Shown piece after piece: positions 34,850 to 39,701 of a stretch of DNA of 64,000 nucleotides. The DNA is from Bacteroidota bacterium (GTDB lineage Bacteria > Bacteroidota > Ignavibacteria > UBA10030 > UBA8401): the NCBI GenBank assembly GCA_035506275.1, contig DATJPT010000002.1:1-64000 (forward strand), in the 5' to 3' direction. The notes under the pieces are model-generated. The model was given only the letters and a program-made list of their open reading frames with translations. It ran no database searches and was not told where the DNA came from. The first letter of the stretch is position 1; each line of letters begins with the position of its first letter. Both the position numbers and the translations under genes were made by a program.

Positions 34850-35139
34850 TTGGACGTCCGGGGCTTCTTTTTCCTATCAACGATGAGGAGACACATTAAG
34901 GTTCCTTCGAGAGCGGCTCATGGACGTCACGACGGGCGCAGGTTTGTGCGCCACGTTCCGGAGGAGGGAGATTTTGAGTGAAAGGGATAACGCCGCGAGA
35001 AAGCCCCCCCACGATATGATCATGAGCCCTGCAGGTTCAGGGTATCAATGACAACTCGGCCAAAGGAAAGGGGCATAAATCACTTCCTTCCTCATCCGCC
35101 GGATTCCCGCATCATGAACAATATGATCTCTGAACCGCG

Positions 35140-37140: not shown

Positions 37141-37795
37141 CAATGCTCCCTTTCTGAATGGCGTGTGCCCGTCCTCTTTCGAAGGATATTCCCGGGCTGC
37201 GAGAAATGTTCCAACTGAAAAAATATACTGTCCTGAAAAATGCACAACAATTATGCCTCTAAATCCGCGCAACAGAGCGGAAAATTGGCACCAGCTTATT
37301 GAAAGTGGGAAGCAGTCAATACCGGTTTTCTTTAGTATGGAAAATTCCAACAGGAACCAGTTTCAAGAACCATGTGAGGCGCCCAAGCGGCAAGACTGCA
37401 CGGGGCGCTGGTCATTCTGAGGAGTGAAGCGGCGAAAAACCGTGTCGATGCTGCTTCGTACCCCCAGGTCCTTCGAACGGTACAAACTACGAATGCGAAG
37501 GGGCAGTGTCATGCTTCCTTCGTCGTCACAAGAAACGCCCCTGCGCGGGACGGTACGGACCCGCCGCTTGTTATTCTCGTTCGCAATCTCTGACAGGGAA
37601 CTGAGTTTGTTTGAGAGGTCAATATTTTCAGGGGGACAATAGATTAAGCAGGCCGCTCCCAAACTGAGATTGGGAGCGAGAGTGGACATTCTCAAACCCT
37701 GGCGTTGCCTGAATGGGTCCAATCTTGATTCTCCTCGCAATAACTCATACATTCGTTCACACAACGTTCCCTTTTTTAATCATTCCCAAAAAGCA
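37141..37795. other. 655-bp intergenic region with repeat-like sequence
   Basis: Divergent gap between the DUF362 gene and the Gfo/Idh gene. The left 200 bp are relatively A/T-rich and suit promoters. From about 37399 to 37545 there is repeat-like sequence (ATTCTGAGGAGTGAAGCGGC and TCCTTCGAACGGTAC), and a hairpin lies at 37654-37678. A 133-residue frame on the minus strand reads through these repeats and is rejected as a gene. Confidence 0.55.
37654..37678. repeat. CTCCCAA/TTGGGAG hairpin repeat
   Basis: CGCTCCCAA (37654-37662) and TTGGGAGCG (37670-37678) form a perfect 9-bp stem with a 7-base loop. It is a member of the GTTCCCA hairpin family seen three times near 38.8-39.0 kb. Confidence 0.65.
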
Positions 37796-38788
37796 ATGGC
37801 AAACAGAAAAATCAAATGGGGGATCTTGAGCACAGGATGGATCGCTCACAAATTCGCGACCGCCCTCAAAGTTGCAGAGAATTGTGAGACCTATGCGGTC
37901 GGGTCGAGAACTGCCGATGCGGCAAAAAAATTCGCCCGCGAGTTCAACATCCCGCACGCATACGGGAGCTACGAAGAGCTGGTGAGCGACCCCAACGTTG
38001 ACGTTGTCTATATCGCCACCCCGCACAATCTCCATTTGGAGAACACGTTCCTCGCCCTCGATCACAATAAGAATGTCCTCTGCGAAAAGCCGATGGGGGT
38101 CAACCGCAAAGAAGCGGCGGCGATGATCGCGAGGGCGAAAGAGAAAGATCTTTTCTTGATGGAAGCGATGTGGAGCCGTTTTCTTCCGAACATCATCAAG
38201 ACGAAAGAGCTGGTCGACTCGGGGGAGATCGGGAAAGTGAAACTGCTGACGGCGTTTTTCTCCGTAAAATCGGAGAACGGGCCGGAACACAGGCACTATA
38301 ATCTGGAGCTTTGCGGCGGGACGATCCTGGATACGGGGATCTACAACATTTTTCTTTCGCTCCTTCTCCTCGGCAAGCCGAAATCCATTTCCGCAATTGC
38401 CGGGTTGGGCGAGCAAGGGGGAGACAATTCAGCCAGCTATACCTTCAAATACGACAAGGATACACTTGCGGTCATGTATTCTTCCTTTCTCGCCGACCCG
38501 GCGGTCGTCGCCGAAATTCACGGCGATAAGGGAAAAATATTCCTCGAGCATCTCTGGTTCTGTCCCGGAAAAGTGAAAGTGACCTACAACGGCGGGAAGG
38601 AAAAGATCTTTGATTTCCCGGTGAGAGGAAACGGCTACGAGTATGAAGCGGAAGAAGTGGCGAAGTGCCTGCTTGAAGGGAAAAAAGAGAGCAGCCTGAT
38701 GAGCTGGAACGACAGCCTTCAATTAGTGGAAATGCTCGACGCGGTCAGAAAAGAGTGCGGAGTGGTGTACCCTAAGCACGATCTGTAA
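37796..38788 (+). CDS. Gfo/Idh/MocA-family NAD(P)-dependent sugar oxidoreductase
   Basis: A 330-residue protein from the ATG at 37796; the longer frame starts in repeat sequence. The N-terminal Rossmann fold begins IKWGILSTGWIAHKFA with the GxxxxG pattern (G9, G14), the conserved EKP triplet is at 97-99 (CEKPMGVN), and the C-terminal domain has the LELCGGTILDTGIY segment typical of substrate binding. The family includes trans-1,2-dihydrobenzene-1,2-diol dehydrogenase-like, glucose-fructose and scyllo-inositol dehydrogenase-like enzymes that interconvert sugar hydroxyl and keto groups. Substrate is undetermined. The gene is convergent with the metallophosphoesterase, with three hairpin repeats between them. 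Confidence 0.9.
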   Translation: MANRKIKWGILSTGWIAHKFATALKVAENCETYAVGSRTADAAKKFAREFNIPHAYGSYEELVSDPNVDVVYIATPHNLHLENTFLALDHNKNVLCEKPMGVNRKEAAAMIARAKEKDLFLMEAMWSRFLPNIIKTKELVDSGEIGKVKLLTAFFSVKSENGPEHRHYNLELCGGTILDTGIYNIFLSLLLLGKPKSISAIAGLGEQGGDNSASYTFKYDKDTLAVMYSSFLADPAVVAEIHGDKGKIFLEHLWFCPGKVKVTYNGGKEKIFDFPVRGNGYEYEAEEVAKCLLEGKKESSLMSWNDSLQLVEMLDAVRKECGVVYPKHDL

Positions 38789-38816
38789 GAGGAGTCCACC
38801 GAACCTGTCATCTCAC

Positions 38817-39049
38817 CTCGTTCCCAATCTCCGATTGGGAACGAGAAGAACAATTACATCCCGTACATCAGCCGGTACCCGAGTTCGCGGGGCAAGCCGG
38901 CGTCTCTCCTCGTTCCCAAACTCTGTTTGGGAACGACCATGCGTTGATGGACGACCTCAACCCCCGTTCCCAATCTCCGATTGGGAACGAGAAGAACAAT
39001 TACATCCCGTACATCAGCCGGTACCCGAGTTCGCGGGGCAAGCCGGCGT
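38817..39049. repeat. Two 85-bp direct repeats and three GTTCCCA hairpins between convergent genes
   Basis: Identical 85-bp segments lie at 38819-38903 and 38965-39049. Each begins with a CGTTCCCAATC-TCC-GATTGGGAACG hairpin (11-bp stem, 13 bp in the first copy) and continues into sequence that, in the second copy, encodes the C-terminus of the metallophosphoesterase (stop at 39000). Between them is a third hairpin, CGTTCCCAAAC-TCT-GTTTGGGAACG (38911-38935), whose arms differ from the others by paired changes that keep the stem. The hairpins could stop transcription from either gene. Confidence 0.88.
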
Positions 39050-39701
39050 TCAAAATTTTCTCCGCCGCGCTTTGAATATCATAAACCGCGCGCACCAGTT
39101 CGTACTCCCATTTAACCGAATCGAAGATCCCGAACGCCAGCATCGGATTCCCGTCCCTCGGCTGGCCGACGCTGCCGACGTTGACGAGCTGCTTTTCGCT
39201 CCGCACGACCGATCTCGACCTTCCATGCGCCGAGAATATTCCGGGAACGTGCGTGTGTCCGATAAAACAGATCTTCTCTTCGCAACTGCGGATCGCTTCG
39301 ACAGCATCGTCGGCGTTGATGATGTAATCCCATAGCTCCGGCGAGCGGGGAGAAGAATGGACAAACTGCACATCCTCTTTCTTCACGTTCATCGGCCTCG
39401 ACGACAGGAACGAACGGTTCTCCTCCGTCAGTTGCTGCGCGGTCCATTCGATCGCTTTCTGTGCGATGGGGTTGAAATCGTGAGGCCCGCCGGGGTCCAG
39501 CGCCGCCTCGTCATGATTCCCCAGGACGATCGCAGAGCAGGTGCGTCGAACAGCGTCGACGCATTCGTTCGGGTTCGCTCCGTATCCGACAACGTCGCCG
39601 AGGCAGATGACCTCATCGACGTGCCTTTCTTCGATGATGCCCAGCGCTTTCGTCAGAGCTTCGAGATTTCCGTGGATATCCGATATGATCGCGTACTTCA
39701 T
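39000..39701 (-). CDS. Calcineurin-like metallophosphoesterase
   Basis: A 233-residue soluble enzyme. Metal-binding motifs are complete: D8-x-H10 (ISDIHGN), GDVVGYGANP (D36), GNHD (N62, H63) and C-terminal GHTH. The proteins most like this are small YfcE-type phosphodiesterases and diadenosine-tetraphosphatase-like phosphatases with unknown natural substrates. It lies 94 bp after the last kinase gene on the same strand, so it could be the final gene of the kinase array transcript, but the functional link is untested. Its last 16 codons lie inside a direct repeat that is duplicated just downstream. Confidence 0.9.
   Translation of the reverse strand: MKYAIISDIHGNLEALTKALGIIEERHVDEVICLGDVVGYGANPNECVDAVRRTCSAIVLGNHDEAALDPGGPHDFNPIAQKAIEWTAQQLTEENRSFLSSRPMNVKKEDVQFVHSSPRSPELWDYIINADDAVEAIRSCEEKICFIGHTHVPGIFSAHGRSRSVVRSEKQLVNVGSVGQPRDGNPMLAFGIFDSVKWEYELVRAVYDIQSAAEKILNAGLPRELGYRLMYGM

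Follow-up and report, generated by a model that had tools for sequence, protein, structure and literature searches.

A dispersed family of REP-like hairpins, its candidate partner RAYT and a duplicated gene end in a Bacteroidota genome

Three hairpins in the gap between two convergent genes are most probably (we put it at about 85%) REPs, non-autonomous elements that the HUH/Y1-type RAYT (REP-associated tyrosine transposase) of the same genome copies or moves in the form of single-stranded hairpins. We assign the hairpins and the RAYT to a REP/RAYT system because they combine a dispersed extragenic family, paired changes in the stem, inverted pairs, a RAYT flanked by hairpins and a recurrence of this partnership in other bacteria, with no such hairpin at 16 distant RAYTs. 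REPs, REPINs and RAYTs are of a known kind, as described in several papers (PMC2817692, PMC3116915, PMC8266576, PMC3733652, PMC6006769).

The window, i.e. the whole stretch of 64,000 nucleotides that was analysed, corresponds to bases 1-64000 of contig C2 in a genome of 3.7 Mb and 20 contigs. The trio of hairpins has a total span of 171 bp and a single shared orientation, and lies between an oxidoreductase and a metallophosphoesterase gene (Table 1). Each hairpin has a perfect 11-bp core stem and a 3-nt loop; hairpin B, in the middle, differs from hairpin A by one swapped base pair (T-A to A-T; AATC/GATT versus AAAC/GTTT) and one changed loop base. Coordinates and alignment thus agree with the preliminary description of this DNA, which had reported three hairpins in 171 bp with 11-bp stems and a paired change in the middle one. 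Folded as single DNA strands, the hairpins gave z = -5.9 to -7.3 relative to shuffled sequences (two hairpins on both strands and the third on one strand). An Rfam scan of positions 38500-39400 returned nothing above the gathering score of a family, with two weak matches at E-values of 1 and 3. The likely start of the oxidoreductase gene is 37796 and not the TTG at 37670; the inverted REP pair in Table 1 is upstream of this likely start and, therefore, REPs are present on both sides of the gene.

Table 1. Locations of hairpins, repeats and genes. Contig C2 holds the window; R1 is the covariance model of the hairpin family.
Feature	Contig	Position	Strand	Details
REP hairpin A, first copy	C2	38819..38843	+	apex AATCTCCGATT; 51.1 bits with model R1, itself built using this copy
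REP hairpin B	C2	38911..38935	+	apex AAACTCTGTTT; one base pair exchanged relative to A
REP hairpin A, second copy	C2	38965..38989	+	identical to first copy of A
Left copy of 88-bp direct repeat	C2	38816..38903	+	87/88 identical to right copy; 38857-38903 is the spare metallophosphoesterase gene end
58-bp segment with hairpin B	C2	38904..38961	+	separates the two 88-bp repeat copies
Right copy of 88-bp direct repeat	C2	38962..39049	+	carries native metallophosphoesterase gene end
Metallophosphoesterase gene (Metallophos_2)	C2	39000..39701	-	
GFO/IDH/MocA-type oxidoreductase gene	C2	37796..38788	+	start picked by codon-usage caller
REPIN (inverted REP pair) 5' of oxidoreductase gene	C2	37566..37690		37566-37612 (+, 24.7 bits), 37644-37690 (-, 47.5 bits)
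Single REP in another gap of the window	C2	28920..28966	+	30.5 bits with model R1
RAYT	C6	345430-345969 (L009:2931-3470)	-	NF047646, 101.4 bits, cut-off 80
IS200/IS605-type TnpA, complete	C13			NF033573, 70.3 bits

A dispersed hairpin family and the RAYT of the same genome

The motif is not confined to the window locus, so the first of the two refuting conditions set in the preliminary description does not hold. Searches of the genome with the pattern CGTTCCCAA-N7-TTGGGAACG, allowing up to 3 mismatches, identified 67 sites versus none for the reversed pattern, and the exact motif GTTCCCA...TGGGAAC was found at 15 sites, again with no site for the reversed control. The covariance model R1, built from 58 pattern sites, identified at least 98 sites at E-values up to 1, at least 90 of them at 20 bits or more; 150 of the 1120 candidates were scored, and the counts are thus lower bounds. 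We read 58 of the 67 pattern sites individually, including six that lacked a clear loop orientation and were oriented by their foot. All 58 are intergenic with respect to predicted genes, although 71% of the DNA analysed and 83% of the window is called coding. Genes were called with a custom codon-usage script that missed the RAYT gene, and because this gave wrong contexts, the six sites of the RAYT cluster were dropped from the context count. The remaining 52 sites lie between divergent genes (13), genes in the same direction (27) or convergent genes (4), or at the edges of the stretches (8).

Inverted arrangement prevails among neighbouring hairpins. From the 98 sites, each taken on one strand, 37 neighbouring pairs within 130 bp were obtained, and 26 of these, spaced 36-78 bp, are inverted with outward-pointing feet, which is the arrangement of a REPIN or BIME; eight others are direct (six and two) and three are inverted the opposite way. 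The window trio itself is not an inverted pair. When one two-hairpin locus was used as a query, 16 other places in the genome matched across both hairpins at 70-90% identity, and there were further partial matches. The two-hairpin part of this query had no match in a genome of the same genus (G001), where no pattern sites were found at up to 2 mismatches. Being short, multicopy, dispersed and extragenic, these palindromes have the general properties of REPs. In a separate genome, G033, 72 pattern sites were found at up to 2 mismatches, those listed being CGTTCCCACGCTCTGCGTGGGAACG or near it, and its single RAYT has the same hairpin in its flanks (L081).

Two matches to Y1 transposases were found in the source genome, on contigs C6 and C13. 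The first is the only RAYT found there, and it answers the suggestion in the preliminary description that such a gene be looked for: six family hairpins surround it, two to one side (C6:345343 and 345386) and four to the other (346010, 346053, 346106 and 346195). Four of the six have an ACG/CGT apex, a minority type genome-wide (9 of 58), and the remaining two resemble one each of the two window types. The resident RAYT has the motifs HHLH and YIHTNP, the consensus of its clade being ENHLH, WQ and YIHNNP in proteins of 177-181 amino acids. Residues H61, H63 and Y139 are invariant across eight aligned RAYT proteins, and it is on this motif that the HUH/Y naming is based. A profile of the clade matched E. 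coli TnpAREP (4ER8) at an E-value of 3.3e-7, and the single PHROGs family matched by the RAYT is one of unknown function. The proposal that the hairpin is a mobile or expanding element, which the RAYT would probably spread, is well supported by its dispersal, its extragenic position, the hairpins flanking the RAYT and the recurrent partnership documented below.

Studied RAYTs read the foot and the palindrome in single-stranded DNA and cleave at a nearby CT, according to one report (PMC8266576). The resident RAYT, or a close relative that has been lost, probably cuts and joins the present REPs beside their CT[CG]G foot. By analogy, it would bind the hairpin in single-stranded form, guided by the foot, and would then cut and rejoin the strand nearby.

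RAYT loci of other bacteria and known REP systems

A first set of RAYT loci comprised the source locus and 29 from relatives, and was split at 45% identity, a threshold chosen in this analysis. CCCA-type hairpins were present within 400 bp at all 14 loci with RAYTs of 45% identity or more and at none of the 16 below it, where 10 loci had other hairpins and six had none. Two additional hairpin types were seen at low identity: an unrelated TTCTTCGACAGT-N3-ACTGTCGAAGAA hairpin, together with shorter kin of this hairpin, at RAYTs of 34-38% identity (L092, L093, L094, L096), and a third type, mostly GTCAGG...CCTGAC, beside RAYTs at 35-39% identity (L097, L098, L100, L101).

A second set comprised the best 80 of 275 relatives from genome_contigs, with RAYTs 49-68% identical; since at least seven loci are common to both sets, they are not fully independent. 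A perfect-stem TCCCA/CCCCA hairpin was found within 300 bp of the RAYT at 70 of these 80 loci (58 upstream, 62 downstream and 50 both), and no TTCCCA-type hairpin was found within that distance at the other 10. The arrangement that defines a REPtron, a RAYT flanked by REPs of the same family, is therefore seen in the source genome and in 70 of the 80 relatives. Hairpins are strongly concentrated at the transposase, with 152 in 46.8 kb near the RAYT gene versus 13 in 232 kb beyond 800 bp. When the feet of the nearest hairpins were counted at 81 loci (the 80 relatives and the source locus), CT[CG]G lay distal to the gene in 42 of the 58 upstream hairpins and in 46 of the 62 downstream ones; eight upstream and 12 downstream hairpins had it on the gene-proximal side, and three had both.

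The loci carry the names of 15 phyla (five have no phylum), several of these labels being single metagenome bins that are possibly mis-binned. Phyla with four or more loci are cyanobacteria, planctomycetes, Pseudomonadota, Ignavibacteriota and Campylobacterota. On the tree of RAYTs the apex letters form clusters, with 24 changes (counting "none" as a state) versus a shuffled mean of 42.6 and no shuffle out of 200 as low; the tree is a quick one of 81 rows, 10 of them without an apex label, and is also sorted by phylum. The CCCAA-type apex of the source genome is common to its four nearest RAYTs, all ignavibacterial, and to three others. Four or more hairpin sites were found in 19 genomes, and in 12 of these a full-length RAYT at 48% identity or above is missing. 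This counts against the RAYT model, as do the 10 RAYT loci that lack the hairpin and the minority apex type around the resident RAYT. In one of the 12 genomes, G036, a fragment of a RAYT lies next to a hairpin (C45:34811-34915 and 34952-34976), which fits decay.

The literature describes two REP super-families, defined by the tags GTAG and CGTC. With GTAG REPs and their RAYTs (BIMEs, REPINs, REPtrons) the present family shares multicopy extragenic palindromes, inverted pairs and a transposase gene framed by palindromes. The likeness extends to the proteins, where the present clade matches TnpAREP 4ER8 and the resident RAYT matches NF047646. The hairpins differ, however, in their TTCCCA...TGGGAA core and in a consensus foot of CT[CG]G, which departs from the 5' GT[AG]G foot by which that super-family is recognised.

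TnpAREP subclass 2.6, which is RAYT group 5, is also similar as described (PMC6006769): its proteins have a mean length of 179 amino acids and the motifs NH[LIV]H, WQ and YIH[QN]NP, its hairpins are termed atypical and lack a GTAG foot, and the flanking structures have copies elsewhere in the genome. According to the same text, members of subclass 2.6 are mostly from Bacteroidetes and have weaker secondary structure, whereas the present hairpins are strong and occur in many phyla. Judged by description, with motifs and length fitted by eye, the present RAYT clade may belong to this subclass.

The CGTC REPs, which include neisserial dRS3, ATTCCC(N8)GGGAAT, have the same TTCCC...GGGAA core, and their tag is often CCTC, close to the CCTCG foot that is frequent here; unlike the present family, they are reported to have no dedicated transposase (PMC3733652, PMC3898611). 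A [CT]GTC foot was seen in none of the hairpins at the 81 RAYT loci scanned, and the A before TTCCC that an 8-9 bp CGTC stem starting with A-T pairs would have was present in 6 of 58 and 4 of 62 cases. By foot, stem base and possession of a RAYT, the family thus falls outside the CGTC super-family.

It is a speculative and rather improbable extension that the CT[CG]G-TTCCCA hairpins and their RAYT clade constitute a third, phylum-crossing REP super-family, a transposase-bearing sister of CGTC/dRS3 as suggested by the TTCCC...GGGAA core and the CCTC-like foot. If true, it would point to the transposase lineage that CGTC repeats reportedly lack. Among the matches listed in a literature search by hairpin sequence words (title and start of abstract), there was no paper on bacterial repeats. 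Whatever its rank, the family is a widespread hairpin with a foot other than GTAG that is tied to a well-defined clade of RAYTs with members in cyanobacteria, planctomycetes, purple sulfur bacteria and Ignavibacteria. Its natural enzyme-substrate pairs, with compensated stem variation, offer a way to learn how RAYTs read foot, stem and apex.

Paired changes in the stem and the duplicated gene end

The preliminary description saw the hairpin as an element selected for structure and proposed an alignment of copies in search of covariation. Across the alignment of 58 copies, 89.7% of the cells are paired, and 52 cells are changed on both sides, compared with 19.1 +- 4.0 in shuffled alignments (none of 500 as high) and 2-9 in slid controls. 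The covariation score was also raised, at 0.238 versus 0.110 for shuffles, none of 500 being as high. Paired changes are thus in excess on these two measures, and the second refuting condition of the preliminary description, a lack of such excess, does not hold either. Two other measures, the counts of doubly changed pairs and of pair types, show no excess (192 and 189 of 500 shuffles as high). The double changes cluster in pairs 3/23, 10/16 and 11/15 and mark subfamilies, and therefore represent few events.

Selection for structure may explain this excess, but repair of quasi-palindromes could produce the same changes. In that case the hairpins would still be REPs, and their paired changes would come from arm-to-arm correction during replication and not from structural selection. 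We consider this somewhat unlikely; such correction could also add to the paired changes. Concentration of the changes in the three subfamily-defining pairs is what a few copied correction events would give. On the other hand, the stem is kept in RAYT-flanking hairpins of many phyla despite differing apex letters (CG, GG, GT, A-), and the clustering of these letters on the RAYT tree is expected of a protein that reads the stem; because that tree is also sorted by phylum, the clustering is not decisive.

The 88-bp duplication that includes the metallophosphoesterase end is real. The two copies are identical over 85 bp (38819-38903 and 38965-39049) and extend to 88 bp with one mismatch from 38816 and 38962. 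The right copy contains the stop codon and the final 47 coding nucleotides of the gene, i.e. 15 codons and 2 nt. The left copy aligned by tblastn to residues 218-233 of the metallophosphoesterase at 93.75%. Orthologues from six relatives, 59-71% identical, end in a similar peptide, and the right copy is therefore taken as the native gene end. The spare gene end does not occur at the orthologues of these six relatives, at any of the 22 loci taken from other genomes or at the paralogue in the same genome. A search of the genome with the 58-bp segment gave, the hairpin excepted, no further match at E-values up to 10.

The loci of five of the six orthologues also lack a TTCCCA-type hairpin. The closest orthologue (G011, L103) has one TTCCCA...TGGGAA hairpin, TTCCCATCAATTGGGAA, located 24 nt past the last codon versus 16 nt in the window; with a 6-7-bp stem, a 5-nt loop and no CT[CG]G foot, it could be a REP in decay, a terminator or a chance occurrence. 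The oxidoreductase gene was not found beside any of the six orthologues in loci of up to 1.5 kb on each side, and with this synteny lost, no true empty site is readable in these relatives. For another REPIN locus in the same-genus genome G001, just one flanking gene was found. Neither an intermediate arrangement nor a precise empty site was found among the six orthologue loci and this G001 locus.

The preliminary description attributed the duplication to recombination at the hairpins. The anatomy fits this proposal, and recombination itself would be the step deduced from it. In a history to which we give roughly even chances, the ancestral order was oxidoreductase, B, A and gene end, and the near-identical hairpins then served as sites of recombination or template switching. 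Such an event would yield a 146-bp repeat arranged head to tail and leave the gene end in a spare copy. The repeat would be closed where the left gene-end copy meets B, and two template switches at hairpins in one pass would suffice. The first hairpin has a 5' flank resembling that of B (TCTC, one base, CCTCG) and the apex and right flank of A. It therefore looks like a B/A recombinant, which is weak evidence from sequence likeness that is partly the REP foot itself.

Alternatively, the second gene end could have arisen through misassembly or by an ordinary tandem duplication independent of the hairpins, which we regard as unlikely. Its absence from the orthologues of the six relatives would suit a recent event or an error, but a simple mis-join would hardly create copies that differ by one base with a single-copy segment of 58 bp between them, and one boundary of the repeat is 3 bp away from a hairpin. 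With recombination at the hairpins, the window locus may be a small example of REP-driven rearrangement of host gene ends. A direct array was observed in a relative, G021, where three like hairpins (TGTTCCCAAACTCTGTTTGGGAACG) share one orientation at distances of 195 and 175 bp (contig C154, 24242-24636).

Terminators and a second transposase as alternatives

Strong stems between convergent genes would also suit transcription terminators or mRNA-stabilising stems at gene ends, acting here as a two-way terminator, and the hairpin beside the G011 orthologue could be a terminator retained at the same place. This is nevertheless very unlikely to be what the family is. The stems have no T-run after them, and neither terminators nor sigma-70 promoters were found at 38700-39100. 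Convergent context accounts for 4 of the 52 sites, against 13 divergent and 27 same-direction ones, and RAYT genes have this hairpin upstream as well as downstream. A terminator role could be secondary to the REP nature of the hairpins.

That the IS200-type TnpA on C13 moves the hairpins instead of the RAYT is scarcely credible: it is complete and two hairpins lie about 0.9-1.0 kb away (C13:46961 and 47016), but a tandem array separates it from them and its other end has no family hairpin in the 6 kb examined (L014), whereas the RAYT has close hairpins on both sides in a pattern repeated in relatives. The array, between the TnpA gene and the two REPs, has a 67-bp unit and 11.6 copies (L014:2616-3396; C13 46115-46895).
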